NCBI GenBank assembly: GCA_963920705.1
Contig: OY987230.1
Location: forward strand, 6,820,001 to 6,884,000
DNA from: Odiellus spinosus
Taxonomy: Eukaryota > Arthropoda > Arachnida > Opiliones > Phalangiidae
DNA: 64,000 nt
Direction: 5' to 3'
Below the pieces are notes generated by a model. That model searched no databases. It was not told the DNA's origin and saw only the letters and a list, made by a program, of their open reading frames with translations. The position numbers and the translations under genes were made by a program. Of this stretch, positions 17,901 to 57,069 are shown piece by piece (the first letter of the stretch is position 1; every line of letters begins with the position of its first letter).

Positions 17901-20900
17901 TGCACACATCTTTCCCACTATCCTTTCATAGTAAAGTTGCACAATTTAGAATAAATCGATTACAAAATGAACTACTAGACTTTATCTTTGCTTCAATTTG
18001 CGCTCACAAGCAGTGATGCCTGATGGGCATTTTCCCAATTTTATCTACTGCTCACGCTCCAGCTCACGACTCTTTGCTGAGCTTGGAGATGAACTCCGCT
18101 CCTGCCCCGTTTCGCAGTTGTTAACTTAAAGGTACTCATCTCCCAACTCTCTCTCATAAAATCTAAATTATAGCCCCTCCCCTCTTGTAAACGCCCCCCA
18201 AGATGGCTCTCCTCTCCCATCTTCCTTTCCTTTTAACCAAGATGGTGCCAAAGTTAAAACTCACATCTCATTAAAAAACTCTGGAGCTCGTATTCTTCTC
18301 CGCTCTTTTTTGCAACGCCTCGCTGGGCTCACCTCTCATCTCATAATTTCGCCCCCTCTAAAGTTATTCAAAGCTCACCTCTCTTTAGATCTTTTGTGAG
18401 CTGTCAGTTCTCCTTCTCATCTCCTCTCCAGTAACTTAAAGCTCACCTCCCTTTAGAAAGTTTCTCAACTCTCATCTCTACCGCTCATCTCATCTCCTCT
18501 CCAGTTAAAACTCGAAGCTAACCTTCCTTTAGACATTTTCCGAACTCCCAACTCTACTGCTCATCTCCTCTCCTCTCATCTCATCTCCAATAACTTAATG
18601 CTCACCTTCCTCAAGTTCCTTTTTATTGATTTTGTCGTTATTTTATTATTCTAAAATCTAAACCGATAAAAAAAAAGCACTTGTTGTCAGAGTTCATGCT
18701 GCTTTAAGAGCCCCATTCATAAACGATCTTAACACTATCACTAACCTTTGGCTTTACTACGACAGTGATGGTCCTATTTTGAAGCTCAGATTAGCCAAAT
18801 TGGTATTTTCATTCGACTTAACCCTTGACACCCACAAGAACTTCAAATAGTGTGAAAATACCAGTATGGGTTTCGTTTTATACATATATAATTTATATTT
18901 TGGGCAAAAAACTTTGATCAAATGGTCAATAGCCCTGTTTACCATTTCCTGAACCCACCACCCATTGAACTTTTATTTAAAATAGTCAAAATATCCAAGT
19001 GAGTGGAGCTGCATGGAGCGGGCCCATCACTGTTGAGTCCCAAAAACATTTCTCTCATTTCTACTCATCTGTTGGAATCCCAAAAAAGTACTTCTCATAT
19101 CTACTCATTTCTTGGAGTTTAAAGAAAATGCCTCTCATTTCTACTCATATCTCTTGAAATCTAAAAAAATGAACCTCTTATATCTACTCATTTCTTGGAG
19201 TTTAAAAAAATGCCTCTCATTTCTACTCATCTCTTGGAATCCCAAAAAAAGAATCTCTCATATCTACTCATCTCCTGGAGTTTAAAAAATGACTCAATTC
19301 TACTCATCTCTTGGGGTCCCAAAACAAAAAGGTCCTCTCATTTCTACTCATCTCTTGAAGGCTTCAAAAAGTAGGCTCTCATTTCTACTCATCTCTTGGA
19401 GCCCCTAAAAATATGCCTCTCCTCTGCAACTCTCCTATGAAATTTTAGTACCTCTCCTGTCCCGCTCCTCTTATATACCACACAAAAACTCATCTCCACT
19501 CAAAATATTCCAAGTGAGCGGACTACTCACAAGTGGTTGGAAACATGGAGGGAACATAGATTAATTAACCTCGGAGGGATAATTCACTCTCATAAAATGA
19601 TTGTTCGAATCGCACCCTGGTGACAAAAATTGTCTCTACACCGGAGGTTTCTAGCTACCGATACACGGGGTGAAATATTGAAGGGTAAAAAAACTCTAAA
19701 GCAGACGATGTTCTCATGGATTACTTCCAGATTTGTATCCTTAAGGGGGTAAATTTGAGGGGCGGGATAAAATGTCTGGCAGCCATGTTTGAAACAAACA
19801 TCTTCAACTACTAGGCATAGTATAGCAAATCGTACCAGAGTGAATTATCCCTGTGAGGTTGATTAATCCATGGAGGGAATGTCATTTACCACCTTTAGTG
19901 AGAACTAAGAATACATTTTTAAGCCTAATTTCAGAAATTTACACAAGCTACTGCTAAAAACACAAGATATAATGCATTCTTCACCTCTTTGAGTGGCATC
20001 CTCGTCAACAGGAGCTTTAGCTTTTGGAGCACTAGGGTATACTTTATTCCTAGGGTATTGATTACGTCCAAAATGAGGCTTGGAAACCGCGCCATTCATC
20101 ATTTCCATATCAGTTTTTTCTTCAACCAAATTTGATCTATCATCTTGTTTATCGTGATTATGCTTTCGTTGCCCCCGATAGGAAGACGGTTCCCCTCCAT
20201 TGTCTTCGGTACCAGTTTCGTTGTATTTTCGATTATGACGACCTCTGTGAGATCTATCAGGATTATAACTCTCAAAGGCTTCTTGGCCCCTTTCTACCCT
20301 TGGTTTGAAGAAACTTCTAGGTTGATGACGATCCCTTCTATGTTCATTTTGACCATTTGAATTGAAGCCACTATCGTCATCTTCCGCCAAAACCTTTGGC
20401 CGATAAGCTTCTTTACCATGGCTGTGTCCGTGCTTATGCCTATGTCCATCTCTGCTATAAGATTTGTAAGGTTTTCTCGAATGATTCTTCTCACTGCCAT
20501 CTTGACTATCATCATCTTCTAGTTTTTTGACCTTTTCATATAAGTGACTTTCATTATTTGACGCTCCGCCAATGTTAGCGGAAGCCCCTTGATCAAATTC
20601 TCCATCCAAATTTGGCTTTTCTGGTCCAGTTTTCTTCAGCATTTCTTCAATACCATCTAGAAGAGATAACTTTTGTCGTTGTTTCTCTTTTTCTATCGGA
20701 TCTTCGTCATTCTGTTCTTGATGGTCATGACCTCGATGATGTCTTCTTCCACCACTGGATCTAGAATTTAGACCATCGTTTAAAGAGTAATATCCTTGAC
20801 GAGGTCCCCGATGATGTCTGTCTCGTCTTCTATCTTCCAACGGAACACTTTCTGGTTCAACTTCCTGCGCAATTTCATCCGGATTCCTGAATCTAAAAGT

Positions 20901-21059
20901 ACCCCTAACTTCAGGAGGTTGATGCCTGTGCCGATTTCCTCCATGAAGGCTGTTGGACGACGAGTTATAATAAGAAGTTCGATTGTGTCTTCCTCCTCTA
21001 CCTCTCGATTGAGAGGAACCACTTCGAGACGACTGCTCATCGTCATTAGCATTTTCCAT
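8215..21059 (-). CDS. NFX1: NFX1-type zinc-finger protein (NFX1 / shuttle craft homologue)
   Basis: NFX1 proteins are nuclear transcription regulators. Ten minus-strand exons: 21059-19985, 17483-17068, 16390-16255, 15724-15422, 15352-15038, 13710-13307, 11444-11224, 9745-9544, 9478-9333, 8407-8215. All junctions are GT-AG, all phases agree, and the total is 3411 nt or 1136 aa; human NFX1 and fly Shuttle craft are about 1100-1120 aa. Domains in order: a charged His/Arg/Gly-rich N-terminus (about 1-355); a C4HC3 RING-type finger (about 372-421, CMVCC to CPTC); a run of seven or eight NF-X1 fingers ending in CHPGPCPPC-type motifs (about 440-900); an R3H domain (about 1040-1075, [13 protein letters not shown]); and the tail [10 protein letters not shown] ... 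VIDYFDF, very close to vertebrate NFX1. The RING finger suggests ubiquitin-ligase activity, known for the family and inferred here. The ATG at 21059 follows a good acceptor (21063-21062), so a 5' UTR intron is likely. The introns are loaded with repeats. Confidence 0.95.
8440..8930. repeat. Diverged direct duplication and poly-A tract in the last NFX1 intron
   Basis: Two related segments (about 8455-8560 and 8745-8870) share GGTCAGGAAGGC, AAGCCACATT and CCAACAAAA in the same order. The second ends in an A homopolymer of more than 30 bases (about 8892-8926). Confidence 0.6.
10185..10550. mobile_element. 366-bp hAT-like MITE in NFX1 intron 7
   Basis: Perfect 17-bp terminal inverted repeats, CAGGCTTGGAAATAAGG at 10185-10201 and its complement at 10534-10550, are flanked by an exact 8-bp direct duplication, GTCTTGAA at 10177-10184 and 10551-10558. 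CAGG ends with 8-bp duplications are typical of the hAT superfamily. The interior has repeated TAGTAGTCA/TGACTAGT motifs and no coding capacity. Confidence 0.88.
10757..10970. repeat. 30-bp minisatellite, about 7 units, in NFX1 intron 7
   Basis: The unit contains GGACTCGAGACTGATGAGTA followed by CGGTTTACCA. Seven nearly identical units are followed by a tail with loose GGACTC motifs. The 30-bp period keeps frames open on both strands, so the 80-101-aa frames here are repeat artefacts. Confidence 0.92.
11638..12300. mobile_element. CCTTACCG element interrupted by a GGGTTCGTACA element
   Basis: Outer ends CCTTACCGAAAAAAGTTAG (11640) and a CTTTTTACCGTAAGG-like right end match the nested element at 6249-6412. 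Its body is split by a second element running from AGGGTTCGTACAAAATTTT (about 11663) to its inverted end TGTACGAACCCT (about 12153). That inner element carries three 40-bp tandem units (TTCCCTGACTTTTCCCTGAC plus a CTTTTGGGCCAATTTGCAAA half) at 11990-12122. A relative of the inner element lies at 51533-52240. Both sit in NFX1 intron 6. Confidence 0.7.
12320..12850. mobile_element. MITE-like element related to 5949-6708
   Basis: The left end GGGTAGACATGCAATCCGAC and right end TTGCATATCTACTTTTAAG are inverted partners, and the interior has GTGCTCCCACAGAATAACG. It has the same family layout as at 5.95, 32.08 and 61.57 kb, and lies in NFX1 intron 6. Confidence 0.6.
12955..13290. mobile_element. 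Long-TIR foldback MITE ending 15 bp from the NFX1 exon-6 donor
   Basis: It contains the family's AAGCTAAGCCTATTTTCC core, a GTGGATTAGGCCTATTTGAACGA-like arm and a terminal AGGTTGAATTCTTCCTTTAAG. Copies lie at 40.65, 44.61, 45.86 and 61.15 kb. The minus-strand donor of exon 6 is at 13306-13305, so the element occupies the start of intron 6 almost up to the splice site. Confidence 0.65.
14269..14765. repeat. 30-bp minisatellite, about 16.5 units, in NFX1 intron 5
   Basis: The unit is GGACTCGATTAGGACTCGAA plus a TTTATGGGGA part. Units are almost identical; variants include CTCAAA for CTCGAA in two neighbouring units, and a tail of loose GGACTCGA motifs runs to about 14890. As 30 is divisible by three, both strands stay open for about 170-210 codons; these frames are not genes. 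Confidence 0.94.
15958..16148. mobile_element. 191-bp hAT-like MITE in NFX1 intron 3
   Basis: The left end CAGGAGCGGAAATAAG and right end CTTATTTCCGTCCCTG are imperfect inverted repeats starting with CAGG. The flanks GTAATATT and TTAATATC share TAATAT, compatible with a slightly mutated 8-bp target duplication. The interior has repeated GGACAATGTCC-like motifs. Confidence 0.6.
18040..19500. repeat. Degenerate CT-rich tandem repeats in NFX1 intron 1
   Basis: Two blocks: about 18040-18620 with recurring CTCATCTC and AAAGCTCACCTCCCTTTAG motifs, and about 19020-19480 with roughly 43-45-bp units built on CTCATTTCTACTCATCTCTT plus a GGAATCCCAAAAAA half. The blocks are related and probably derive from one ancestral array. 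Confidence 0.75.
19555..19869. mobile_element. 315-bp inverted-repeat element flanked by 10-bp direct repeats
   Basis: The termini are inverted partners over about 32 bp (left GATTAATTAACCTCGGAGGG, right the complement of GATTAATCAACCTCACAGGG, both continuing into ATAATTCACTCT). The element is flanked by direct copies of ATGGAGGGAA at 19545-19554 and 19870-19879. No coding capacity; it lies in NFX1 intron 1. Confidence 0.75.
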
Positions 21060-21063
21060 CACT

Positions 21064-21500
21064 GAAATTAAAGATATAATTACAAATTATTAAAGAAATA
21101 GAATGGCTTCTAGACTCCTAGAGTTCCAATATTAGAAAAAAAAAAAAAAAAAACTCAGTTTCATAAAACCAAGGCTTAAAGGCAATCTTCAAGACATTAC
21201 CCTTTTTAAACTTGCGCCTTTGCCAGAATTTAAATCAATTTTAAATGATTGTTTCCAAATGTTTGGAAAATTATTGCGTAAATAAAGTTCAGGATAATTA
21301 ATTAAAAAAAACTGGAATAATACACGTATACCGTTGACTCACGTCGAGAGAGTCGTCAGTCGACTCGACACACTTTACGCCGCTCGAGTAAGCAGTGTGC
21401 GGTCGTTCCGATTACGTGATTATAACCGGTACATCTGCTGAAACTCACAGAGTTGGTAATAACCGAGTAAGTTGGAGTAAGAAATTAAATGGTCCAATGA
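21064..21500 (-). promoter_or_regulatory. Probable NFX1 5' UTR intron and promoter
   Basis: Directly upstream of the ATG is a strong minus-strand acceptor (TTTCAG at 21067-21062). About 280 bp further upstream is a GTGAGT donor (21342-21337) next to a CpG-rich stretch (21340-21430) holding repeated GTCGACTCG-like motifs. This fits a short non-coding first exon beginning within about 21343-21450. The start site itself cannot be read from sequence. Confidence 0.45.
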
Positions 21501-22527: not shown

Positions 22528-24111
22528 TCAAGTTTGATTTCGTAGGAAGATACGAACGTAGCTGTTAAATTTATCCGGGCACTCTACGGGTGACCAATGA
22601 CCACATCCATTTATTACCCGTAAATGGAATGTGTCGATGTACATAGAAGATTGCGTGGCACAGAGCATATCTAAAGCTCTATCTTCATCTCCCCAAATTA
22701 AAAGAACAGGAACGCATACGCGATAAGCATCACGTGTGTGGCGTTTATCATCGGTTGTAAAATTTGCTCGATAATAGTTTATCGAATGAGTTATTGCACC
22801 TGAAAAAATAAGTTTAAATTATTTGGTGTGAATAAATGCAAGTTTGGATGCTTAAATCACTCCTTATTGGCAGAATTTTGCACCTTTTTAACAGCCAATA
22901 TTATATTTTTAATCTTTTTTAAAGCCCAGTTCACACTAAAGACTTTGTAACCATTTTGGAAAGGTTAGATTGTAAAATTTTTGGTTTAAATGTCAAATTA
23001 GTGAATTTGAACATTCAAAATGATTTGAAAACAATTTCAAAGTCACTAGCGTGAATGTAGGCATAAAGCGTCCAAACTTACACTTAAAATCTAGAAAAAG
23101 GTGTTGTAAGACTTTTTTAAATACCTGGCCGGGAATAAATATATTTATAAGCTTCAATTTCTTCATTGGAAGCAAATTTTTTATTTCCATTTGCAAAAAT
23201 ATTGTGGAAAATTTTCATATCCTCAGATCGAAAATACATTTCTGGTAAATAAGGTAATCTAAAGAAAAACATGTACCTTTTTCCCCAACAAGGACTTTAA
23301 TTAGAAGAAAGGAGAGCCAATTTAAATATGAACAATAATAATTATCACTTACCAGCATTTTAAAAATTGTGACCAAGATTTTCTGAGAACTTTAAATAAA
23401 ACTTTAGGATGAGGAGCGTTGCTAACAATTAAACTAGACACAACTTCGGGGTATTTAGCAGCCAAATAGTAAGATGCCAATGCGCCCCAATCGTGAGCCA
23501 TAACGATAGCTTTTCCAGTATCACGACTCAAACTCAGAATCAATTGATGTAAATCATCAACAATTCGGGCCAGGGAATATTCCTGAATATTATTCTTTTT
23601 CTCAGAGTCTCCAAAACCTCGTAAATCTATCGCAACTACGCTGCAAAGTTTAAAACCCAAATTTTTATATCGACATTCTTTTTAAATAAAAATAAGGACT
23701 ATTTACTAATAATCTTTGCTGAACTCCTTTAATTGATATCTCCAGAGGAACCAAAAATCAGGCCAGCCATGGATTAACAACATCAAAGGATTATTTTGAT
23801 CTCCATTAGCAACATAGTGTATTTTTATATCCTGAAAAATGAATACACTTGATATTTAATGATAAGGTTTTTAATAGCAATTTATCATAATCACTGATAA
23901 ATCAATTGACACTGACCTTTAACTTCACATATCCGTGTCTTCCCAATAAAGGGTCTAGCATGCAAGGAGGCGGCGTTTCACGCGTTTTTACATAAAAGAA
24001 CTTCGATTTTCCAACAATTAGAATACGTAAGAAGCACCTCAACAACGTTATCCATCCGTAAAACAAGGGGAGAAGGAAAAGCAATATTTTACTCGACAAC
24101 GTCCGAGTCAT
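22528..24111 (-). CDS. EPHX4: EPHX4-like epoxide hydrolase (alpha/beta-hydrolase)
   Basis: Five minus-strand exons: 24111-23917, 23831-23707, 23640-23353, 23276-23125, 22799-22528. They give 1032 nt, 343 aa, with all phases consistent; human EPHX4 is about 362 aa. Residues 1-35 form a hydrophobic signal-anchor, then PPPCMLDPLLGRHGYVKLK aligns with the membrane-linked N-terminus of the family, so ER membrane anchoring is inferred. Oxyanion motif HGWPDFW at 86-92; nucleophile Asp157 in AHDWGA; acid Asp293 in WGDEDRAL; catalytic His321 in GHWSP. The expected role is hydrolysis of an epoxide to a diol via an alkyl-enzyme ester; the substrate is unknown. For exon 4 the acceptor GGGGAAAAAG is needed: the nearer CTTTAG would create a stop, while this one gives WYMFFFRLPYLPE, matching the family. 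The start is the first in-frame ATG. It may instead be an EPHX3-type paralogue. Confidence 0.93.
22925..23062. mobile_element. Short MITE in EPHX4-like intron 4
   Basis: Imperfect inverted ends GCCCAGTTCACACTAAAGAC and GTCACTAGCGTGAATGTAGGC bound about 138 bp of non-coding sequence containing inner inverted CTTTG/CAAAG. The last residues do not clearly show a target duplication. Confidence 0.5.
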
Positions 24112-24773: not shown

Positions 24774-27700
24774 ATGGAAGAAACACCAAAATACGGTAAA
24801 AAATGGGAAATAACTATAATTATTGTAAAATCATCAGTTATTTTTTATTGTTAAATATATCCAAAAGTTTTAGTGTATAATAAGCGTTTGCATCTGTCCT
24901 GGAAACCACACTGAAATGGCTATGCCTGTGTGGTTGCCTTAAACTCTTCGTTGTAAATTAAATATTATTATAGTTATTGTTATTGGTAATTGAACCTTTA
25001 ACTATTTAGTGTTTCCCGACCTCCATCCTGTTGACGAAGGTCTCGAGGAAGAACAGGAATTCCATTTCGAACCGACTGCAGAGAGAAATAGAGCCACATC
25101 GGCTTCAAATTGTCCGAATACCCCATCGACTGCATTTCCATTCCCACTTCCTAAGTCAACCTCGGGGGCAGCTGCCAGTAGTTCCTCAAGTCCCGTTTTT
25201 AAATTCCCCCCGAAAAGGAATATTGCACCAAAGGTTCCATCCCTGAGACTCAGATCTAGAACCAAGTAGGGTGGTATTTGAAAATTGGGAAATTACTTTG
25301 TAACACTAATTACTCATATTCAAAATTAGCAGCTCATTCGCTGAAACACCTAGAAATTTTCCTCCTAGAAATTATAGTAGTTCCTCAACTGGTAATAAAA
25401 CCAGAAGATCCGGTAATGGTAAAACTACAGATGCCTCTAGCGCTACCGTTCAGTGCTCAGTCCTAGTTGGTAAGTCTTATGATTTTATATATATCATACC
25501 AGGAGTTTAAAAGAAACCACCTTTTGAGAGGAGGGGGTATGAAAAAGGCTATACTAGGAAGGTAGAAACTCGGTAACGACAAGACACTAACTTGCGAGGG
25601 ATTTCATACCTCGCTGCACTCCAATATCAAGTCTGTCTTTTGGTTTTAACTTTGAATCGGAAGTTAAAAAGGCCAAACTCTCGCGTGTAAAATATTCCGA
25701 ATAACAATACGTACAATTGTTCCGGAAGAGAGAGTCTAAGAAAATGATTGGGCTCGTGAAAATGGTGAAACTATTTTCAAGTGAATAAAGCGGTGTCTCA
25801 ATCCTCCCGAGTTTAACGACGAAACTTTGTGACGCATTTTTCACTACGTTGCGTACTGACCCCCTCCCTGAAGTGGGTTTCTTACAAACTCCTGATCATA
25901 CGAATCATAAACCCGTAATATCAACATTCCTCGAAGCCGTGGTCGAAGGACGTGGTAACGCCAAGGGTGAAGTTGGTTTAGCCAGCATAGATTTGAAAAA
26001 CCCTCTATTGGTATTGTCCCAATTCGGCGATAACGCAACGTACACGAAACTGGCCACCAAACTCGTTATCCTGGATCCGATTGAAATCATACTTCCAAAC
26101 ACGACGTACGATACCAACAGGAAGACGGGTAGCGACTTGGCCAAGTGTTTGAAGGAGCAACTGCCCGACGTTAGGCTCAATTCCGTCCAGAGACGCTACT
26201 TCAACGAAGGGCTAGGGGTTCAATATATCAGGGAATTGTGCGCGCCAGAGTACATCTCCGTCGAAATGGATCTTAGTACCAAGTATACTTAGCGCACCAT
26301 TTTTAAGTTTTCACAGCTCCTAGCCAGCCATTTCTTCTGTAAGAGAAATATTTTTTTTTCTCTTCTGGAGCCTAGTTCTGAAGAATGCGCCTACCAGGCT
26401 ACCACTCGTAACAAGAACGCGTTCATGTACATAAGAAACCAGGGAATACAGCTTTAGGATCTTGTACCACGCTCGCATATTTTGTAGCCAAAATTCGTCC
26501 GCTCTTCACTTTCTCGCCTCTCTAAAAACGCACCTTGGAGTTTCATAGTTCTCCTGAGGTTGATTCCCTAAGACAGTCCTTGTTGATAATGTCATTAGTT
26601 TCGGTTTCTACTGTATTATTTTTTATATAAAACTTTAAAGCAACTGGTGGCTCTGGAGGAACCCCTGTGAAAGTCTCTTCCCTGATGCACGTCAAATATG
26701 CCTTACCAAAGGCAGGAGCCAATGGGACCCACATACACTTATAAATCCCTCCCTCCTGCCTTTGGTAAGGTAAATTAATTGTGTAGCAGAAAAGCAGGAA
26801 TTTAGGAGAAACTCTAGAGACGCCAGTTGCTTTAAGGAATCTATATAAAGTATGGGTTTAGAATATTTTGCTCCCATGTTCTTAAGCACAATAAATGCGT
26901 TCTTGCTTCCGGAGAAATATTTCCCATTAGCGTTCTGTTAGCCGAGGAACGAATGTAAAAGGAAAAATCTGCAATTTTTAAATCCCCTTAAAGTCGCCTT
27001 CTTTTCTAGCTTAACACAAGACGTTGACGGTTGACCATATCAACTTGTACAGTCAAAGCTAGGCTGTGTGCATAAGGGAAGAGCATTTTAAAGGGCCAAA
27101 TTTCAGAGCAGATAGGGTCTTTAAGAGGAATTCTTAGTATTTGTTTTATTTCTGAATCCAATGAAGTGCCTGACGTATACCAGTAGCGTATTTAAAGGCT
27201 CTGAAATTTGTCCTTTTAAAATGCTATTCCCTTACGTACACAGCCTAGCTTTGACAGTACAATTTGTTGTGGTCAACGTCGTCTGCTAAGCTAGAAAAGA
27301 AGGCAATTTTAAAGGAGTTTTAAAATGGCAGATAGTCCCTTTAAGGTCACTGAAGAAATGGTTGGCTTTTCAAATACAACTGTTTAACTTATGAAAACAC
27401 TCGCTTTACGACATTTTGCGGCCTGGCTTGACCATCCCAGTCTTTTGCTTTAAGCTAGAAAATGCGACCTTGTAAATTTATCCAATTGGTCGGGAGTTAA
27501 TGGTCGACAAAAAGTCTATTAAGTGGCTTTTTGATGAAATTTATTATACGGAAGTTAAGGACTAATTTACCTAACGCAAAACCTTACCGCGGTATGATAC
27601 CTACACAATTTTGTTTTGCCTGACGTATACCAGTAGCTGGCGGAAGGACATATTTTTCGCTGCGAAAATAGCTTGATGAAAATTAGTCTTAAACATATTA

Positions 27701-30700
27701 GTTTTATCGCAGATATTATTCACTAGCAGCTGCAGCCGCTCTGCTAAAATACGTTGAATACGTACAACATACCCAGTACATTCGGAAATCGCTCAAGGTG
27801 GTTTATCAAGGCAGTTTGAATACCATGATGATAGGTAAATATTTTAACTATTAACTCATAAAATAAATATTACACTGGGACCCAAAAAAAAAAAAAAAAA
27901 AAAAAAAAAAGCACTCTCATGACGGAAGATACAAAAATAGGGTTTAAAGGCCCTATCTGCTCTAGAATTTTCCCCTTCACTTATGCACAAAGCCTAGCTT
28001 TGACTGTAAAATTTGTTATGGTCAACGACGTCTGTTAAGGAAGGAAATAATGCCACTTTAAAGGGGCTTTCAAAATCGCAGATAGTCCCTTTAACGTGGT
28101 TTTATTTTAATAAACAATTTATCCGAGATTAAAATATCTGAAAAAGGTCTAGATATCATTGGATAATTCTAAGTTATTCATTATCCGATTCCGAGCACTA
28201 TCTACTGTACACTTGTTCTTGTATATATATATATATATACTTTTACAATATGCAATCGACGTAAATTAATTCTTCCTAACAGACGCCATAACGGCTAGGA
28301 ATTTGGAGGTGATAAACAACAACACGAACCTCCGTAGCAAAGACAGTCTTTTCGGAGTCATGAATTTTACTAAGACCCCCGGAGGGACCCGTCTACTGAG
28401 GGCCAACTTAATGCAACCGCCCTGCGAAGCGGCGGTTATCGCGGACCGATTGGACTGCGTTCAGGAAATTCTAGAGGATGAGCAACTGTTCTCAACATTC
28501 CAAACTCTTCTGGGAAGGTTCATAAATACGGAACATTTATTGTCCTCTTGCGTTCAAGTACCAAAAACGGAGAACCTCCAAGTGGCCCAACAGAAAATAA
28601 ACAACGTCCTGTACTTGAAGCATACTCTGGAAATGGCCGAAGCCCTCAAAACGTACACCAAGAATTTTAAACATCCCACACTCGTGGCTTACCATAAGGT
28701 AAAAAAATTTAAATATTGTCTTATCATTTAAATACGAGGGATCGCGGACACTTTCCACTTTTTGAGGATTTTAGAGATAGATCTTGAGATTTCAAAGATA
28801 CTTTTGAGGAAGAATTTGAGATTACAAAGCTACTTTTGTGAATGAATTTGAGATTACAAAGCTACTTTTGTGAATGAATTTGAGATTACAAAGCTACTTT
28901 TGTGAATGAATTTGAGATTACAAAGCTACTTTTGTGAATGAATTTGAGATTACAAAGATACTTTTGTGAATGAATTTGAGATTACAAAGCTACTTTTGTG
29001 AATGAATTTGAGATTACAAAGCTACTTTTGTGAATGAATTTGAGATTACAAAGCTACTTTTGTGAATGAATTTGAGATTACAAAGATACTTTTGTGAATG
29101 AATTTGAGATTACAAAGCTACTTTTGTGAATGAATTTGAGATTACAAAGCTACTTTTGTGAATGAATTTGAGATTACAAAGCTACTTTTGTGAATGAATT
29201 TGAGATTACAAAGCTACTTTTGTGAATGAATTTGAGATTACAAAGCTACTTTTGTGAATGAATTTGAGATTACAAAGCTACTTTTGTGAATGAATTTGAG
29301 ATTACAAAGATACTTTTGTGAATGAATTTGAGATTACAAAGCTACTTTTGTGAATGAATTTGAGATTACAAAGCTACTTTTGTGAATGAATTTGAGATTA
29401 CAAAGCTACTTTTGTGAATGAATTTGAGATTACAAAGATACTTTTGTGAATGAATTTGAGATTACAAAGCTACTTTTGTGAATGAATTTGAGATTACAAA
29501 GCTACTTTTGTGAATGAATTTGAGATTACAAAGCTACTTTTGTGAATGAATTTGAGATTACAAAGCTACTTTTGTGAATGAATTTGAGATTACAAAGCTA
29601 CTTTTGTGAATGAATTTGAGATTACAAAGCTACTTTTGTGAATGAATTTGAGATTACAAAGATACTTTTGTGAATGAATTTGAGATTACAAAGCTACTTT
29701 TGTGAATGAATTTGAGATTACAAAGCTACTTTTGTGAATGAATTTGAGATTACAAAGCTACTTTTGTGAATGAATTTGAGATTACAAAGCTACTTTTGTG
29801 AATGAATTTGAGATTACAAAGCTACTTTTGTGAATTAATTTGAGATTACAAAGCTACTTTTGTGAATGAATTTGAGATTACAAAGCTACTTTTGTGAATG
29901 AATTTGAGATTACAAAGCTACTTTTGTGAATGAATTTGAGATTACAAAGCTACTTTTGAGGAAGAATTTGAGATTACAAAGCTACTTTTGAGGAAGAATT
30001 TGAGATTACAAAGCTACTTTTGAGAACGATTTTGGAATTCCAAAGTTAGAGATCGGGGTTTGGACAAGAAATTTCTGATTATTTTATCTTTATTCATAAC
30101 TTAAAATTTTTTGAGGAAAGTCTATGATAAATCCAATGTAATCGCGAATAATTTTCCGATTATTTTTTTTATGATTAACTGATTAACGGATAGTTGGGGA
30201 TTATTTTGTCCAAACCCCGATCTCTATCCAAAGTTAATTTCCCATAGGGAACGTTTAAAAACTTCGGTGGCAATTGGTATTTTAGTCAAAGTGTACGCGA
30301 TTTTGGCAAGTGGACCAACAAAGCCTGCTTCCCGTTAATTTGCAGTTAAAGTGAGGCTGTCACGGATTTTTCGCGATGAGCTCCAAATATAATTTTTAGA
30401 AATAGTGTTAAAAATGATTCCGAAAATGATCTTCCGAATAGCTTTCCCAGATTCGGGGAGAAAAGAACCCATAATACATTTTTTTTACCCATTGTTTTCG
30501 TTGGTACCGAATCCCTGGGAAAAAAATAAATAAACTCTGGTTCGGGTTTTGTTTTATCTTTCTAACTTAAATGAGAATCAACAATAATTACTTACTCTAA
30601 TATGTAGGCTTTGGAAAACCCTCAATTTGGGGAAATTCTAGAACTGATTCGTGACACGATTCACGAAGACGCTCGATACGTCAAGGGAACGAATAACATG

Positions 30701-33700
30701 ATACATCAAAGATGTTTCGCTGTTAAAGTAAGTTAAACCTTTCAAGAAAAACAGATCCAATCAGATGACTTCGAATAAAATATTAACCATTAATAAACAG
30801 CCCAACCGAATCGGATTACTTGATGTATCTAGAAAAATCTACACGGAAACCGTGGAAGACATTATAGGTATGTGCAGGTATTGATACAAGAAGAGTTGTG
30901 GGATAGTAGGATAGTATCGTAGTTTTTTGGGAACGCGTTTTTCTCTTTATTTTAACGTGTATAGGTAACGGATCTAGGAAAGTTCAAAGTCGCCTTCTTT
31001 TCTAGCTAAGCAGACGACGTTGACCATAACAAATTGTACAGTCAAAGCTAGGCTTTGCGCATAAGGGAAGAATATAATAAAGGGGTCAATTTCAGCGCAG
31101 ATAGGGCCTTTAAAGGGACTATCTGGACACTGCTTAGCGGGCTTGCGCAGTGACTTTACTGTTAGCTCCTATGGTTAACCAATATTATTCGGGGATGTTT
31201 GTAGTGAAAGAGTGCAGCATTCTTCCAAACATCGTTTTCAGTTCGTGCGCTCATCTTATACGTTCAACACCTGTCATGGCTGTGATTAGGCTTAGAGCGC
31301 TTAAGGGAGACTAATATACCGGTATTTGTAAATATACTTAAAGGGAGAATGCAACCCGAGAAATATGGCGATGTTGGATTTACTTAAAAATATGAGAAAT
31401 ATAGTTAAGAGAAATTGAAGCTCAATAAATATGACGGTATTTGTTAATACATCTCGGAGTTGGGATAAATGGAGAGACCAGACCTGACGAAAAATAGTGG
31501 GGGCTTCTCCTATAGACTTGACCATTTTAAACACCAAAAACGTGTCTAAATATTGTTTTTTAAGATTCTGGAATACGTTTTTTTTTGGCCTGGTGATTGC
31601 GAAAATATATTTAAAAGCCGTTCCATTTTTAGCTCCAAGTTTCCCTTTAAATGTTTTACCATTCGGTTTTACGTCTTTAATTCGTGCTAACAGATACAGT
31701 GCGACGATTGGGAGAATATTACGGAATGCCGATGTTGCGGACGAGTTATAACTCATCCAGAGGCTATCACGTTCAATTACCCGTCATTGGCAAAGTGGAC
31801 CCTGATTCTATAAATTTACCACCAACTTTCCTAAAAGTTGTTCGCACCAAAAGTAGCATCAACTTTACGACGGACGAAATGGTAAGAAATCGTAACTAAA
31901 TTGATTCCATTTTAAATATAATGATTCAAATTGGTATCATCTTTTGCTGTTTCAAAAATGCAAAACTTCTACTCAAATCTCAGTTAAAATTAAATTGTAA
32001 GTACGTAAGGTGAGGAATTAAAAATTATATAATGAAGACTAGTAATGTGTTAATTGAAATCGTTATAATATTCAAGGCATTCGGACCTTGTCAAATTGAT
32101 TTATCACTCCAAACTCGCGAATTCAATCTTAACAAAATGATAGGCTGTTTTTATACGCGCGTGACGTCGGTTTTACTTGTCATTTCAATGTGCCCACAAT
32201 GAGAAAAATCAACTAATTTTGTGAAAAATAGTTAAAATTGGTAAATTCAATCTGAATTCGACCAAATAAACCAAATGAAATAAAGTGAATTTAACAAAAA
32301 GGCATTTTTCATTTTGGTCCAGTTTTTCTTGAATTTATATATTTGGATCATTTGTGACCAAATTAGGCAATATTTCCTCATTGAGTACGACAATTTCGTT
32401 ATTCTATAGGAGCACAATGAAATGAAAAGTAAAACCGACGTCACTCGTATAAGTAAAAGCAGCATCGATCGTTTTTTTCCTATTTCTCGCGATTAAATTA
32501 GCGAACTTGGCGCGAGATCAATTCTACAAGGCCCGAATCGAGTCAAACTGCGCTTGAATACTCTAAAAAATAATTGAAGTTTCCCGTTAAAGTGAGGTTG
32601 ACACGGATTTTACACCAGTTACAAATTGAATTAGAGAAGTATTTTAGCAAAAACCGTTATAAAAAGATTCAAAAAATATATATTCGTTAATTGTAAATTA
32701 AAAAGAAACGTTTCACGGCTTTTACTATTGTTTTAACGCATATTTTAACGTTCATAATCGATAGCCAATAACACGTTACTCGCCTTCATTATCCCTTTAA
32801 GAGGTTTGACGTAAAGTATTTTCTAAGGTCGTGCCAAAGAGTCTCTGGAGGAAATTTACGTTATGAGCAGCAGGTAAGTTATCTATTTAACCAAGAGTAT
32901 ATTAAAACCATCCTTAAGAGTAAGAGAATACACCATTTAGCTCTTCCACTGTACGCATGCCCGCGCTCAGGGAAGCAAAGATAACAGGGATTCAGGGAAC
33001 TTGATTCGCCTCTTGTTACGCGAATAAAGCTTATCCTCTATTCATTATTAGCTCAAATACACCAGGGCTTGTAGGCATACACTTTATATCATTTTATAGG
33101 GCGTTGCATACGTTGCTATTGAACATTTGCGAAAAAGTGCACTGCCTACATAGTTTAGCGGAATGCGTCGCAAACTTGGATATGTTAATGTCCTTAGCTC
33201 AAGCCGCCTCAATTGGCAATTATGGTAATTATATCAGTAAAATTATATAACGCCGTCTTTCTTCAAAAAATCTCTCTTTTTAATTATTTGTCATATCCGA
33301 TCGTATTAAAATAGTTAAGCCAGAATTTACCGACACGATAGCCATCCGAAACGGTCGACACCCTATCCTAGACAGAATTGATTCAGAGCTCATGGTTCCT
33401 AATAACACTGTAAGTATAATTATCCCTTTTGGCTCTTGGTTTTAATTGTCCTTTTGAAACCAAACTAAATCTCTATTTCTCGTGTAGTTCTTAAGCGAAG
33501 ATAGTAATATGCAGATCATATCCGGACCCAACATGGTATGTACTTTTTGTATCAGCTTCTAGATTGCCAGTTTTTTTATTGCTATGGTGATCATCTATAA
33601 AATTTCAAATTTCCTCGCAATCGACTTTGAGATTTCGATTTTTATCGCGATCGACTCTGAGATTTCTATTTTTATCGTGATATACTTTGAGGTTTCTATT

Positions 33701-36700
33701 TTTATCGCGATATACTTTGAGATTTCGATTTTTATCGCGATCGACTTTAAGATTTCGATTTTTATCGTGATATACTTTGAGATTTCAATTTTTATCGTGA
33801 TCGACTTTGACATTTCAAATTTTCTCGCGACTGACTTTGAGATTTCAATTTTTATCGCATATTGTCGAAAATTAAACCCCTCCCACTCAGTCGGAGAACG
33901 ATAGCAACTCGAACATTCCCTCTTACGTCTTTGATCGAGTTCCTGATGCTATATTTATAGCAAAAGTCTATCATTTTATTCCATAAAAGTAAACAACGCC
34001 CCGTAGCTTAATACTATCAGCAAAGGGCTAGCTAAACGTACTAGCCCATCACTTAAAGTTAAAGTTAGCCAAAAAAGTCACCACCCCTGTCTGGCTCGAG
34101 TGGTTTGGACTCTTCCTCGATATTATGAGTCGGAAGAGAATGACGGAATTTAGACGGGCCGCGTTTGCCTATACTGTCTTCCCTCCCAGCTTCGGAATAC
34201 CTCCAAAGAGTGGCGCTTCCTCCGTTCACTATTTACACGGCGACTGCGGCCGCTAGAGTGTCTCGAATCAGAATCTGCCTGTACATTTACCTGGACCTTT
34301 GCTGATAGTATTAACCAAAGGGTCTTTTTTTACTTTTATGGAATAAAATTATATACTTTTGATTATAGTCATACATGGTGAAATCTTTTCAAAATCGTAT
34401 AATGAGTGTTTAAGAAATACGCCAAAATAACCTTTTATTCAAAAGAGCCATTGAATAAATCTCGAGATTCGAATAGGAGAATAGGATCGTCTGAATTTGA
34501 TTTTTCTATCGATACTTTTGAACAACAGAGTGGAAAGTCGACTTACTTGAGACAAGTGGCTTTGTTGCAAGTGATGGCTCAAGTGGGATCGTACGTGCCA
34601 GCCGAATACGCTTCTTTCAAGATCTGCGATCACATATTTTCTCGAATCGGAAACAATGACGATATGGAATCCAACGCCTCGACTTTCATGATAGAGGTAC
34701 GTATCAAATCGAAAAGAAAACTCTTATCTGTTGAAGAAAAATAAAAAAGAAACGCATTTTTATTAATTTTTCCATCCAATTTTGTTTCTTTTCATACGCA
34801 AAGATGCGAGAAACAAGCTACATTCTTAAAAACGTCACCAACAATTCTTTGATAATTATTGACGAATTGGGAAGAGGTAAGTTTACTTAATTTAACGTCA
34901 GTCATAGCTCATCTCGGTGACGTCGCGCCTATAAACTTCTCAACTAGCTAGGGCGCTACATTGGACTAACATTGAAAGAATAGGATGTCGTTTGACACCC
35001 AAGAATTTGTCCATCAAACGCCGGCCTATTATTTTTATGTTAAGACCTTACAAGCACTGTTGAGGGCTGAAATAATATGAACGGCCTGAATTTATCTTTA
35101 CTTTTATTCAAATTTTACCAAACTTTAGAAACTAATTTAAACACCAAAAAAGTGCCTAAAATTGTTTTGAAAATTCTCGAATACGTTTTTTGACATGGTG
35201 ATTCAGAAAATAAATTCAAAGGCTGTTCCATTGTTAGCTCCAAGTTTCCCATTAAGCTAGAGTCACTTTATAGTGAAGCAACATTCCAAAGAGATGTTCA
35301 AAACTAATTTTTTAATTTTAAACAAAGTTAGAGATCGGGTTTGGACAAGAAATTTCTGATTATTTTATCTTTATTCATAACTTAAAATTTTTCGAGGAAA
35401 GTCTATGATAAATCCAATGAAATCGCGAATAATTTTCCGATTATTTTTTATGATTAACTGATTAACTGATAGTTGTGGATTATTTTGTCTAAACCCCGAT
35501 CTCTAAACAAAGTATTAACTGCGTACGTTAGATCTTCTCGTACATTACTCTTGCATCCATTTTATAAGAAAATGTCTTTTTGATTTGAGAGTGGTTTCAA
35601 AGTTTTAAAAATTGAAGGTGTAGTTTAATTTTTTTTAATATATATGACAATTAAGCGTAATTTTACACAGGTACGAGCTTAGAAGAAGGTGCCGGCATTT
35701 GTTACGCAATTTGCGAATTTCTTCAAGGTTTAAAAGTAAATAACACTTTTTTTTTAAATTAAAGGGTTAGTGAAAAAAATATTATTTCTATAAATGAGGT
35801 CACTAACGCTTTAAAACTTAATTTCATTTATACTTGTAATATATTTTTAATCCTCCCTCTACGGCTCGTCCGATGTTAAGGCCTTCACCTTAGTGGCTAC
35901 TCATTTCAAAGACGTCTGCCTTTTGGACTTGAATTTCCCCAACGTTTCAAAGTTCGAAATTATGCTTATTTTTAAACTATAAAGGATAAGTCTTATGAAA
36001 ATTCTTATTTCTACATAAAAATTTATTTTGATTCGAGTACCATTTTTCCAAATCAAATACTTGATGTTTTTTTATCTTTAAATAGCTGACGATTGACGAT
36101 TGCCAATTAAATATTACATTTAAAATCATTATAATCTCTCTTAATTAAAACGCGAAGCCTAAAATTTAATTCGAAGTCTCCCGTTCGTTTGCAATTGAAA
36201 CACACTCTTATATACTCTTCCCTTATAGAGGGGGAGAAAAAAATTATAATTCCAGCGTTGATCTGTCTCAGATCCCTATGTTACAGATCCATAGGTTCTC
36301 ATACTAATCAATTTGGCAATGTTCCAATTGCGCACTTCCACTTTGAGCAGTTCTTATAAGCGCATTTGCACTTCAGCAGTATTTCGGTTTCGCAGTTTTC
36401 CATTTCCGCAGATTTCATTTAGTAGGTTAATGGAAAACTGCGCAAATGAAAATGCGCAAATGGAAAACTGTGCAAATGAAAACGGCGAAAATTAAAATGC
36501 GCAAATGGAAAATGCGCAGATAGAAAACTGCGCAAAACGAAAATAAGCAAATGGAAAACTGCGCAAATAAAAATGCGTGAATGGGGAACTGCGCAAATGG
36601 GAAACTGCACAAATGGAAATGCGCAAATGAAAATGTGCAAATGATAATGGATGTGAATCCAAATCCTTTAATTTATACCTTTAAATTTTCTCATTTCAAA

Positions 36701-39003
36701 GTTTTCTTTGAAAAAGCATTTTTTCCCGAGACTTATCCTTTAAAATAGAAATACTTTTCCCAAGTACACTTTTGCAGAAAACTCAATAAGTATATTTCTT
36801 TCCCCGCAGTTCGCATCTAATGGTTGATCATACGGGCTCCAATTCGACTCTAGAATGCGATTGGAAAGATTCAAACTATCATTTTAGTCACGTTTTAACG
36901 TCTGGAAGTACTTCGGAAGAACACTACGGTATATATTATATAAATCGACGAATTTATGCTAGATTTCATTCAACTTGAACATCTATACTCGAAGTAACGT
37001 GAAAATATTTTTCCTATCTCTCGCAGGTTTGAAGTTAGCTCATAAAATCAGCCTCCCGGAAGAGATCTTGAAAGAGAGTAGAAGAATAGTCAAAGAGACG
37101 GATGAAGAAAAAAGGGTTCGTACATTTACCAAACTAAAATAGAAACGAAAGTTTCGGCCAAGAGAATCTACTGGCCAATGAAATGGATGCTTTATAGGAA
37201 AGAGATGGAAATACCTGTAGGGTAAAGGTTAAATCAATGCGCCAAACCATAAGTTCATAACTTATATTAGAAAAGTAATTATTATCAAGTAGCTACGTAA
37301 CTAGTAGAGATCGGGGTTTGGACAAAATAATCAGTTAATCAGTTCATCATCAAAAAATAATCGGAAAATTATTCGCGATTACATTGGATTTATCATAGAC
37401 TTTCCTCGAAAAATTTTAAGTTATGAATAAAGATAAAATAATCAGAAATTTCTTGTCCAAACCCCGATCTCTAACTAGAGTTCTAAAATTACAGTAATTT
37501 ACGGGTAGTTACAAAATGATTTTGTATTTGAATTTCTGTGATTTTAAATGCGAAATTCCTGTTTAAAACTCTTCAAAATTCTTATTTTTTACTAAACAAT
37601 TCCTACACCAATGAAAAATTAAATGTTTTTCATGATAAACTTGACCATTTGACTTGGCATTGATAGAGCAAAGTGATTCAGACGTAAAAAATTAAATTAA
37701 CACGCCCTTAAAGACAAAAAACTTAAAACTAGAGTTCGGAATTCGTATAACTTTTGTTAATTAAATAAGACAATCGTGAATGTCAATCAGATATTATCCG
37801 TTTTGTGAAAATCATTTCCATTTGCTATTCGAGTTAACGTATATCCTAATGTAAGGCAAACTTTTTATTCGTACTCCTTGTTATAGGAAATTGATATAAG
37901 TTATACGAGTTATTCATTTGCCGATAAGAACGATTTAAAACTTAAGTTTCTTCGCGGATTTTAAACAAAATTGAGATCTCGAAGCTAGAATGTAGTCATT
38001 TAGTCGCTGTTCCTTTCAATTTAGATTAAAATCTAAATATTATATTTCATTCTACACGAATTTCGAGAAACATTATATTTTTATCTTGGCGTTATCCGTT
38101 TGAATAAACGCGTAATTTGTTTATTAATCGAGCTTAAAATTTTATCTCGGTAAAATTCGTATCCATGTTTGATACGCGTCTGTTTCTATAATTTTTCATT
38201 TCATATTAACAAAAAGTTTAAATGAGATTAAAATATTAAATAAATATCAATGGATATCCTAAATTTTTCAATATCTGATTCCGAACTCTTAAAACTAGAG
38301 ATCGGGGTTTGGACAAAATAATCCACAACTATCAGTTAATCAGTTAATCATAAAAAAATTATCGGAAAATTATTCGCGATTACATTGGATTTATCATAGA
38401 CTTTTTTCGAAAAATTTTAAGTTATGAATAAAGATAAAATAATCAGAAATTTCTTGTCCAAACCCCGATCTCTACTTAAAACGCTAGGATATTTTTCTTG
38501 GATAAGTTGTCATTTTCGGATAAAAACGGTATTATTATTTATTTTATCTTCGGGTAAATTAATTGCAACAGATAAAAATGTTTTAATCAAACGGATAATA
38601 TCTGAATATAATTCAGTAGATCATATCCAATTAATAAAAGTTATACAATTTCAAAGCACTATCGTTTATGAACGGGGACTATATAGCAGTAGCACTATAA
38701 CGTCTACCGTATATTTTATTCAACAACGTGGCAATATTTTCTTTCCTCATATAACATCAGGAAAAGAGATTGTTGCCCAAAGAAGCGAGGATACAAAGGT
38801 TAAAGTTCGCGATTCAAGCCAGTATCAAACAAATATTGAGAAATGGACGAATGAACGAGCTCGATTTAAGAATGACGGTGGCTGAGGTTAAACAACAATA
38901 TAATGGTAGTTTGATTCTAATTGATCAAGAATTTGACAAGGAAAATCAAGAACAATTTGACAAGGAAAACGAACAACAATCTGATATCGATATTGATCAA
39001 TAA
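24774..39003 (+). CDS. MSH4: MutS homologue MSH4 (meiotic crossover factor)
   Basis: MSH4 pairs with MSH5 as a meiosis-specific ATPase that clamps recombination intermediates and promotes crossovers; it does not repair mismatches. Exons: 24774-24795, 25010-25265, 25369-25469, 25874-26282, 27713-27834, 28283-28698, 30608-30727, 30801-30867, 31694-31881, 31984-31996, 32828-32873, 33100-33224, 33315-33409, 33488-33535, 34529-34696, 34804-34876, 35671-35735, 35881-35951, 36810-36928, 37027-37115, 38761-39003. Total 2856 nt, 951 aa (human about 936), phases consistent throughout. It has a Ser-rich N-terminus and [14 protein letters not shown], then the MutS connector, core and clamp ([32 protein letters not shown]) with no mismatch-binding domain I, as usual for MSH4. 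Walker A GPNM/SGKST lies at about 673-681, Walker [11 protein letters not shown] with Asp752-Glu753, and FTLVATHF with His786. Exon 1 (MEETPKY) is inferred; exons 18 and 20 use weak donors (GTTCGA, GTTCGT). All ATPase motifs are intact. Confidence 0.95.
26701..26770. other. Perfect 18-bp hairpin in MSH4 intron 4
   Basis: CCTTACCAAAGGCAGGAG (26701-26718) is exactly complementary to CTCCTGCCTTTGGTAAGG (26753-26770), with a 34-base loop. I see no second copy of this hairpin in the window and no flanking duplication. It could be a small foldback or an RNA hairpin. Confidence 0.8.
27035..27345. mobile_element. Inverted pair of CAGATAGTCCCTTTAA-family fragments in MSH4 intron 4
   Basis: Left arm CAGTCAAAGCTAGGCTG...GCATAAGGGAAGAGC and right arm GCTATTCCC...CAGCCTAGCTTTGACAG are inverted copies, ending at CAGATAGTCCCTTTAA near 27340. 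The same sequence recurs at about 27935-28096 and 30985-31125 in the same gene and partly at about 6900-6960. Confidence 0.65.
27880..28097. mobile_element. Poly-A tract and CAGATAGTCCCTTTAA-family MITE in MSH4 intron 5
   Basis: An A-rich run of about 28 bases (27883-27910) precedes a short element from TTTAAAGGCCCTATCTGC (about 27943) to GCAGATAGTCCCTTTAA (about 28093). These are inverted ends; the interior holds GCCTAGCTTTGACTG. Confidence 0.65.
28783..30029. repeat. 32-bp minisatellite, about 39 units, with 11-unit higher-order period, in MSH4 intron 6
   Basis: The unit is AATTTGAGATTACAAAGCTA followed by CTTTTGTGAATG. A variant with AAGATA in place of AAGCTA occurs at 28957, 29085, 29309, 29437 and 29661, that is at spacings of 4, 7, 4 and 7 units. 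Edge units (GAGGAAG in place of TGTGAATG) differ from the core, as expected for an array growing from the inside. Confidence 0.94.
30047..30226. mobile_element. hAT-like 180-bp MITE (TAGAGATCGGGG family), MSH4 intron 6
   Basis: Terminal inverted repeats TAGAGATCGGGGTTTGGACA and the complement; flanked by an exact 8-bp duplication TCCAAAGT (30039-30046 and 30227-30234). It sits at the right edge of the 32-bp minisatellite. Confidence 0.92.
30985..31130. mobile_element. CAGATAGTCCCTTTAA-family fragment in MSH4 intron 8
   Basis: Contains CAGTCAAAGCTAGGCTTTG, GCATAAGGGAAGAAT and CAGATAGGGCCTTTAAAGGG, matching the copies in introns 4 and 5 of the same gene. Confidence 0.6.
31480..31652. mobile_element. 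GTTTCCCTTTAA-family fragment in MSH4 intron 8
   Basis: Shares CACCAAAAACGTGTCTAAA and CCATTTTTAGCTCCAAG plus TTTCCCTTTAA with copies at 195, 35090, 39295, 40008 and 63586. It ends about 40 bp before exon 9. Confidence 0.6.
31984..31996 (+). CDS. MSH4: 13-nt microexon of MSH4 (exon 10)
   Basis: The sequence TTAAAATTAAATT lies between a pyrimidine-rich acceptor (CTACTCAAATCTCAG) and a consensus donor (GTAAGT). Exon 9 ends in phase 0 and exon 11 must be entered with one base in hand; 13 nt supplies exactly that shift and encodes LKLN plus the first base of a Cys codon. The joined protein reads [18 protein letters not shown], aligning with vertebrate MSH4 LIKMNERCQESLREIY. Without this exon the frame is lost. 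Confidence 0.88.
32080..32580. mobile_element. MITE-like element in MSH4 intron 10
   Basis: Inverted ends around GGACCTTGTCAAATTGAT and GATCAATTCTACAAGGCCCG, with the interior motif TGTCATTTCAATGTGC seen in the family at 5.95, 12.3 and 61.6 kb. Confidence 0.6.
33601..33862. repeat. 30-bp tandem repeat in MSH4 intron 14
   Basis: About nine loose units of GAGATTTCGATTTTTATCGC plus a GATCGACTTT part. The 30-bp period keeps frames open on both strands without being coding. Confidence 0.8.
33958..34368. mobile_element. Inverted-repeat element (CAAAAGTCTATCATTTTATT family) in MSH4 intron 14
   Basis: Left arm CAAAAGTCTATCATTTTATT with CCATAAAAGTAAACAAC and TTAATACTATCAGCAAAGG; the right arm is the inverted counterpart (CTTTGCTGATAGTATTAACC ... 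ACTTTTATGGAATAAAATT). Other copies: 52829-53596 (interior in the opposite orientation, interrupted) and 62214-62370 (truncated). The interior has a GC-rich segment (GGCGACTGCGGCCGC) and no frame that I recognise. Confidence 0.75.
34975..35256. mobile_element. GTTTCCCTTTAA-family element in MSH4 intron 16
   Basis: The left part carries AGAATAGGATGTCGTTTGAC and CATCAAACGCCGGCCTATT; the right part carries CACCAAAAAAGTGCCTAAA and CTCCAAGTTTCCCATTAA. The layout matches 39945-40175. Confidence 0.6.
35329..35505. mobile_element. hAT-like MITE (TAGAGATCGGGG family), MSH4 intron 16
   Basis: A 177-bp copy flanked by exact 8-bp duplications AACAAAGT (35321-35328 and 35506-35513). Confidence 0.92.
36317..36645. 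mobile_element. GCGCAAATG-repeat element in MSH4 intron 18
   Basis: The right half is a run of AATGGAAAACTGCGCAAATG-type motifs; the left half carries the inverted form (TTGCGCACTTCCAC, GCGCATTTGCAC, CGCAGTTTTCCATTT). The same motif structure makes up the element inserted at 52873-53271, so this is a second member of that family. The exact ends are not clear. Confidence 0.65.
37305..37473. mobile_element. hAT-like MITE (TAGAGATCGGGG family), MSH4 intron 20
   Basis: A 169-bp copy with both inverted ends. The flanks GTAACTAG and ACTAGAGT share only ACTAG, so the duplication is imperfect or one end has been altered. Confidence 0.85.
38296..38474. mobile_element. hAT-like MITE (TAGAGATCGGGG family), second copy in MSH4 intron 20
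   Basis: A 179-bp copy flanked by exact 8-bp duplications CTTAAAAC (38288-38295 and 38475-38482). It ends about 290 bp before the last exon. Confidence 0.92.
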
Positions 39004-54857: not shown

Positions 54858-57069
54858 CACTTCCTGTGTAAGCGGATATCCTGTGTAAGCGGAAATCACG
54901 TGACCTAGCTCGTGGAGCAAAAAGTCTAGAGACGTAATCATACCAGCTTATCGTTCAATTCCGTTTAACGGGAATTACCTCCTTTAAGCGTGGCTGCCAC
55001 ATTAAGTTTCAAGTGTCGTGCAATTATATGCAACAGGACGTCTCCAATTGCATATTATCACCTTCCACCATCCACTTTACGGTCAAACCTCGATGCTGGA
55101 CAGTTGAAGGCGATTATACGCAATGGGACGTCTCCCACTGTTATAATCACCTCCGACCATCCCTACACCAAGGTCCAACCTCAAGTGTCCGATCTCAGCG
55201 GGCCATATTAGCGAGGCGTCCCTCACTAATATAGTCCACATCAACCTTCCACTCCACTCATCTCCTCCCTCTACGGGTCTTTGTGGTGCAGTTACCGAAT
55301 GCCTAGGGTTACGATAAACGTCTAGACGTTGAGAAGGGGGGGTTTTCCCCAACTCTTCACGGTTACTCGCTCGATGAATAAAGGTTAGCGAAAGCTATAT
55401 ATACCCCTTTTCCATGCCCAAACTATTTTGGCCTTATGCCGCGATTTCTTTTAGTAAATTGAAGCGTATAATGCATTTAAATTTTAATTTAATATCATAA
55501 TATTGTTAAACTGAATCTAATTAATAACTAAGCTGAAAAATCAATTAAAAATTCGAGATAGTTTAGAAGATATTTAAGAAATTGTCCAAAAATTTAGTGA
55601 AATTTGACCGTTTAATACCAGCTTGAGTTGGCAACACGCGTTAAGCTGTTTTTTATATATCATTTAGTCCAAAAAGTAAAGGTATAACGGGCAGTATAGG
55701 CTAAGGCTTGCTGCAAACTTGGGGTGGATTGAAGAATCTAAATAAAGGTACGTTTACACGGGCATCCAAGATAGAAATGATATAAGATTTAAAGCTGAGG
55801 CGGATTGATACAAAATGTTAAACCTCTTAAGAAAAATGATAGTGGTGAAAGCTCTCCTTGAACAAAAGTACAGTAGGTTTCCCGTGTTTAAAAAACAACA
55901 ATTTTGAAGAAAAAATGGACATCTGATGTTGGAAAAAAAATAGGCTTCAGTTTTCTCCACTATAAAACCAAGAAACATTTCCGATTTTTTTCATAATCGA
56001 AATAAGCCGTGTACAGTGATCTTCGAGACGAGACGAGACGAGGCCAGACCAGACGAAAGAGAGCTATAATGACTTAAGGGAGATAATCAACCAGCATAGA
56101 ATGTTATCACCATTTGAAGTCAACAGAGCAGCGACACGGCTTTCATTTATCACAAGAAAGAGACGGCCCGGCTACGAAGAATTGAAACGTGCAAGCAGTT
56201 AGTGTTTTCGGACTTGACATATCAGATACCTACAGTCAGTAAAAGCTCGGCAGTTCTTCATACGGCCTCGTAATTGTAAACAGAAAAGGAGCTATTCTAA
56301 CGGTATGGAAATTAGTCTACTTTCAGTCTTTTAAGATATTTTTTTTATCGTAGGAGTGGAAGCTAACGTCTTGTAACCGGTTTGGAGAATAACCTCTCAT
56401 AAACCAGCTCAATCCTTGGATTCTTGCAATGACTGGGATCACTTGTATGATGAAAATATCAGTAATGGCCCTCTGTTAGCACGTCAAATCAAGAATTTCG
56501 GACGAAAATTGTACCGGAAGTAATTATCAATCATCTACCGACAATGGGTTGTAAATGGAACATTCAGTCTACAATATTCCTTGGTTTGTCCAAGAGGAAC
56601 TTGCTACCATATCTTCGTCGTTTTCATTCCTTGTCTTCCTTGCCATCCCAGACTAAATTCTTCGTCTTTATCAAATCAGTGGATTATCAAAGATAATCAC
56701 ACAGTACAGCCTATACTCAAGTGTTAATTTATATTACTTGTATTTTAAATTTTTACTTATAAAATAAACATTTCATTTGGTGTGTCTATTAAGAAATCTA
56801 TGCCCTGCCGCATATAATTATGGGTAACGCAGGGGTAACGCAGGACACACTTTTGCATTCTCTGAATCCTTGAGGTTAAGGGAAAATACTTATACTCCGT
56901 AACCTAGATGGGAAATAGAGAAGTGTGATTGAAATGCACGCTGTTTCTTCTACTCTTCCAATACTCCACATTTCTTTTCATCTTTTATTTTAGGTAAGGT
57001 TAGGTTAGGTTAGGTTATGTTACCTTAACGTCGGGGTCGGGGAGGTTATATTTTGGTTTCCCAACTTGT
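54515..57069. repeat. Duplicated unit, copy B
   Basis: Same landmark order as copy A (41255-44378), with a much longer GT microsatellite (about 54797-54858) and the full inverted motif CCGACTGAACTTTAGTTCAG. The ORF core corresponding to 43258-43444 is present, but its start codon is GTG followed by a 2-base length difference that puts an in-frame stop upstream. The second putative exon ends at 56523 with four amino-acid changes. Confidence 0.85.

Follow-up and report, generated by a model that had tools for sequence, protein, structure and literature searches.

The window analysed here, a 64,000-nucleotide stretch of the Odiellus spinosus genome (443 Mb in 286 contigs), carries a MutS-family gene (Table 1) that we take to be MSH4 on the basis of the vertebrate sequence. 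Its 20 predicted exons, one of them of only 13 nt, were positioned manually from the sequence and then joined; together they give a single MutS-family reading frame that stays open for 871 codons, and 19 of 19 introns are GT-AG. MutS domains II, III, IV and V (PF05188, PF05192, PF05190 and PF00488) all lay above the Pfam cut-off, and the translation contains GPNMSGKST and DELGRGT, which we take to be the Walker A and B motifs. Pfam listed these four families only (E up to 0.001), MutS_I not being one of them; a missing domain I is typical of MSH4 and MSH5. Four further MutS-family loci in the genome were by eye MSH2-, MSH3-, MSH5- and MSH6-like, the MSH2 locus being the one compared with PDB sequences. 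An acceptor for exon 4 at 25791 was dropped, as it breaks the frame, and 25937 was taken instead on homology. The least certain parts of the model are exon 1, the donor of exon 18 and the 3' end, which is tentative because exon 20 was extended beyond 37115 until the first stop. On a small position weight matrix built from the 17 other introns of this same hand-made model, which provides all splice scores given below, the exon 18 donor (GTTCGA) scored 3.79, the weakest among the 19 model donors.

Table 1. Positions, within the window, of the gene model, the candidate microexon and its surroundings
Feature	Coordinates	Strand	Description
MSH4 coding model	24774..37142	+	20 exons joined by hand; MutS_II, III, IV and V in Pfam
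MSH4 exon 9	31694..31881	+	188 nt; phase 0 end at ...FTTDEM; donor GTAAGA at 31882
Upstream intron	31882..31983	+	102 nt; two AGs, at positions 4 and 101 of the intron
Rival donor GT	31892..31893	+	ATC then GTAACT; frame kept without the microexon
Predicted microexon (exon 10), TTAAAATTAAATT	31984..31996	+	13 nt; LKLN and first base of a Cys codon; residues 560-563
Downstream intron	31997..32827	+	831 nt; donor GTAAGT
Repeat element with inverted ends	32131..32478	+	ends 32131-32193 and 32412-32478, 81% alike; in the 831-nt intron; overlaps candidate exon 32410-32428
MSH4 exon 11	32828..32873	+	46 nt; entry requires one base already read

Several other features were noted in and around the gene. 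On the minus strand, ORFs at 22528-23681 adjoin MSH4 and by eye suggest an epoxide-hydrolase type alpha/beta hydrolase, and Cys-rich ORFs at 13298-21086 resemble by eye an NFX1-type zinc-finger gene. Between exons 6 and 7, a minisatellite (28784-30045) in which a 32-base unit is repeated 39 times with 97% matches takes up most of the intron. An element with AGAGATCGGGGTTTGGACA at one border and the reverse complement of this sequence at the other recurs by eye at about 30040-30230, 35330-35510, 37300-37475 and 38290-38475, in and beside MSH4 introns, and looks like a small inverted-repeat transposon. At 56990-57022, inside a chromosome arm, there are 6.6 copies of TTAGG, which we take to be the usual arthropod telomere repeat unit. 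Elsewhere in the genome, one nuclear-sized contig (C17) carries several long COX1 copies, for example at loci L010, L011 and L012, in which TGA and TAG are read through; they probably represent mitochondrial DNA inserted into the nuclear genome. The mitochondrial contig itself (C286; 16,074 bases) reads in the invertebrate mitochondrial code, with a gene order by eye of ND2, COX1, COX2, ATP8/6, COX3, ND3; ND5, ND4 and ND4L reversed; ND6, CYTB; and ND1 reversed, presumably the ancestral arthropod order.

The original prediction was that a 13-nt microexon lies between exons 9 and 11, and its position, splice sites, phase and encoded residues all proved correct in the sequence, as did the phase 0 end of exon 9 and the entry into exon 11 with one base already read. 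Exon 9 terminates in ...GACGAAATG at 31881 (GAAATG, then GTAAGA), and read-through from there (GTA AGA AAT CGT AAC TAA) meets a TAA after five codons. The 13-nt segment is preceded by CTTCTACTCAAATCTCAG, which contains the CTCAG acceptor, and followed by GTAAGTACG with its GTAAGT donor; it encodes LKLN and ends with the T of a TGT codon. Exon 11 reads GTCGTGCCAAAGAGTCTCTGG from 32828 and is preceded by TTTTCTAAG, with an in-frame TAA at 32824-32826. With the microexon, the spliced junction would read FTTDEM-LKLN-C-RAKESL; if it is left out, a stop follows after 12 codons, within exon 11. The four residues fall within the MutS_IV match (481-570), presumably near the clamp-lever junction of MutS. 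At 13 nt the segment falls within each of the size limits in use for microexons (15, 27 or 30 nt), and it is flanked as an internal exon would be, with CTCAG and GTAAGT at its borders and predicted exons 9 and 11 on either side.

The microexon had also been called necessary for the frame. Its omission does lead to the early stop, but 'needed' is too strong a word because other solutions likewise keep the frame: the interval holds 31 open internal AG..GT segments shorter than 200 nt and eight single-junction joins that do so. Frame alone was accordingly rejected as proof. The bare anatomy is not beyond chance; when the interval (946 nt) was put through 10,000 dinucleotide shuffles, 7,910 of these contained an open AG-N13-GT segment, and the real interval has two (31984 and 32077). 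Nor are the splice sites outstanding. The CAG acceptor had been described as pyrimidine-rich, and CTCAG is present, but the wording was generous for a score of 3.77, the third lowest of the 19 model acceptors; the donor (6.86) is the fourth lowest of 19. The summed score of 10.63 ranks third among the 31 frame-keeping internal segments, on which ground splice score alone was also rejected as proof, and 329 of 1,000 shuffles contained some frame-keeping segment scoring at least as well.

It is among the higher-scoring segments that one alternative is found, in which the frame would be maintained by another internal exon starting at 32410 and ending at either 32428 (19 nt) or 32452 (43 nt). These two candidates exceed the microexon in summed splice score (13.08 and 11.69 vs 10.63). 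However, they overlap the repeat element within the intron, which is present at many places in the genome: at least 97 matches were recorded, three of them at its own locus, with the best 40 of 1,863 candidates scored, and among the matches listed the relatives elsewhere share 65-82% identity across parts of the element. The candidate peptide, EHNEMKS, lacks the LKLN match, and the AG-free stretch of these candidates is 24 nt only. We regard an exon starting at 32410 as highly improbable.

Two properties of the 13-nt segment are beyond chance, its peptide match and the AG-free stretch of 97 nt ahead of its acceptor. For the first, we take LIKMNERCQESL to be the vertebrate MSH4 counterpart of the microexon region, with IKMNE the residues matching LKLNC. 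A full-text literature search for this vertebrate peptide found no paper, and the 37 distinct PDB sequences matched by the model include no MSH4 chain. LKLNC scores 11 against this presumed IKMNE, and a 13-nt candidate with as good a match arose in 26 of 4,000 shuffles and, in a second run, in 53 of 10,000. A 13-nt candidate with as good a splice score was seen in 107 of 4,000, and one as good in both peptide and splice score in none of the 4,000. The peptide test was weaker with MSH2 as the reference (440 of 10,000 shuffles for MSH2 from the same genome, 568 of 10,000 for MSH2 from PDB), and all three references were satisfied together in 18 of 10,000.

The AG-free stretch, a feature chosen post hoc, is the longest for any of the 40 AGs in the interval and also the longest among the 19 MSH4 acceptors; in the whole window, 10 of 3,552 AGs have one of 97 nt or more. 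AG-free length marks real acceptors in MSH4, with a median of 40 for the 18 other acceptors vs 13 for all AGs of the window, but it does not mark all of them, as the acceptor of exon 11 has just 11 nt.

A second explanation dispenses with the microexon, in that exon 9 would be extended by ten bases to the donor at 31892 and joined to 32828, which preserves the frame and puts VRNR in place of LKLNC (joined DNA GAAATGGTAAGAAATC-GTCGTG). Distant relatives do not decide between the two because the PDB sequences are split and Pfam MutS_III is about even (23.6 bits for the 31892 donor, 23.1 for the microexon). The extended exon gave the better match to 11 of 25 distinct PDB sequences, in two of the four PDB MutS groups: the 1ewr/1ewq/1fw6 group, which we take to be Thermus MutS (43.1 vs 39.4 bits with the microexon, for 1ewr), and MSH3 (34.2 vs 28.9, for 3thw). 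It was worse against the other 14, in the 5x9w group (33.8 vs 37.0) and the E. coli group (26.3 vs 28.7, for 1e3m), and MutS_IV also scored lower with it (31.3 vs 35.0 bits with the microexon); with an alternative acceptor at 32842, MutS_IV gave 31.9 bits. The 31892 site itself is poor. It scores 0.65, below the weakest donor of the model, and ranks 24th of the 53 GTs in 31840-32827, whereas the GTAAGA ten bases upstream ranks first at 8.66. Its peptide is, in addition, one residue short of a gap-free match to the presumed vertebrate MSH4 sequence. In our judgement, the relative strength of the donors, together with a match to presumed vertebrate MSH4 that needs no gap, settles the choice for the microexon, and use of the 31892 donor is very unlikely.

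The MSH2 gene of the same genome reads NNGVRFHSSNLRQLNSNF (FHSSNLRQLN) here in one frame without an intron, and the PDB MSH2 equivalent is NGVKFTNSKLTSLNEEY (FTNSKLTSLN); with the predicted microexon, the L and N of MSH4 sit at the same distance from F as in MSH2. Pairwise alignment to MSH2 favours the microexon only slightly: scores were 25 for the microexon vs 21, 18 and 17 for the alternatives against the genome's own MSH2, and 32 vs 30, 29 and 31 against PDB MSH2, the best alignment of the version with the 31892 donor lying elsewhere.

Another possibility is that MSH4 is decayed or mis-assembled in this genome and that the 13 nt are plain intron. The searches offered no second copy and no relative to set beside this one: a DNA search with joined exons 9-12 gave the gene's own three pieces only and no processed, intron-free copy, a protein search returned 14 rows, comprising MSH4 itself and paralogue loci with no processed copy of exons 9-12, and no relative was found among viral contigs. 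Against decay stand the 871 open codons across 20 exons, the four MutS domains above cut-off and the retention of both GPNMSGKST and DELGRGT; moreover, a chance insert is not expected to restore MutS-family residues. We consider decay or mis-assembly very unlikely. Among the frame-keeping solutions tested, the predicted microexon is the best on sequence, and 31984-31996 is very likely a real internal coding microexon of MSH4.

How the transcript is spliced, in which order, and that a skipped form decays are all inferred from the same sequence. Splices would run from 31881 to 31984 and from 31996 to 32828, inserting LKLN and the first base of the Cys codon where the clamp and lever helices of MutS join. 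The 102-nt upstream intron would likely be recognised by intron definition, the sole AG past its donor being the acceptor of the microexon; such recognition is plausible because 7 of the 19 MSH4 introns have a length of at most 107 nt. The first step may be to join exon 9 to the microexon, to give a 201-nt composite exon ending at the GTAAGT donor, and the 831-nt intron would then be removed in the ordinary manner. As skipping would shift the frame to an early stop, we expect constitutive inclusion in all cells that produce full-length MSH4. The frameshift stop lies upstream of nine more introns of the model.

A search for MSH4 together with microexons found no paper in the library covered. 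Coding microexons are already known as a class, to which the 13-nt exon of MSH4 very probably adds a new example. That such small exons tend to escape gene finders, as the original prediction stated, finds support in work on plants, in which coding microexons of 1-15 nt are reported to be often unannotated and about half are not multiples of three (PMC8831610). They are of the same size class and coding role as the predicted MSH4 exon; the plant cases span many genes with RNA-seq backing (PMC8831610), whereas ours is one arthropod gene read from sequence only. A constitutive 4-nt microexon is described in mammalian MPC1, with a critical 3' splice region and major branchpoints far upstream, at -63 and -68 (PMC9929638). 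As in MSH4, its length is not a multiple of three, so that inclusion is required for the reading of the protein. It differs in that its flanking introns exceed 12 and 3 kb, vs 102 and 831 nt in MSH4, and in that its inclusion was measured (PMC9929638). The Drosophila microexons of up to 30 nt described by PMC8042270, like the MSH4 case, come from an arthropod; of the 411 that have a flanking exon on either side, 128 are constitutive, but the set is enriched in neural and morphogenesis genes.

The neural microexons of flies and mammals that depend on eMIC are reported to have a long AG exclusion zone, a weak 3' splice site, nearby UGC motifs and a strong CUAAY branch point (PMC8797185). The MSH4 candidate resembles this type in its 97-nt AG-free zone, its third-lowest acceptor and TGC at -39 and -25. 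A pattern search upstream of it found no CUAAY, the only candidate being TTGAT at -83. The likeness is one of motif features in a meiotic gene, whereas the eMIC microexons are neural (PMC8797185). For C. elegans it has been proposed that intron definition, aided by PRP-40, takes over where an exon is too short for exon definition, and the need for PRP-40 or PRPF40A is removed by a short flanking intron of about 50-60 nt (PMC8378409), compared with 102 nt at the MSH4 microexon. The weak acceptor, long AG-free zone and TGC motifs could conceivably make a regulated on-switch, tying inclusion to a microexon factor of the eMIC or PRP-40 type, with cells that lack the factor degrading the frameshifted MSH4 mRNA. 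We consider such a switch improbable. If it were true, MSH4 would be confined to the germ line by splicing as well as by transcription, and the dosage of crossovers could be set by splicing too.

A 13-nt exon beside a 102-nt intron would offer a simple natural case for testing microexon splicing. At this point a gene finder is likely to report a frameshift or a split in MSH4, which is a conserved meiosis gene, and as microexons are often absent from annotation, a lineage could be wrongly said to have lost MSH4. That risk is of interest because MSH4 and MSH5 are reported to have been truly lost in Drosophila (PMC2680839).
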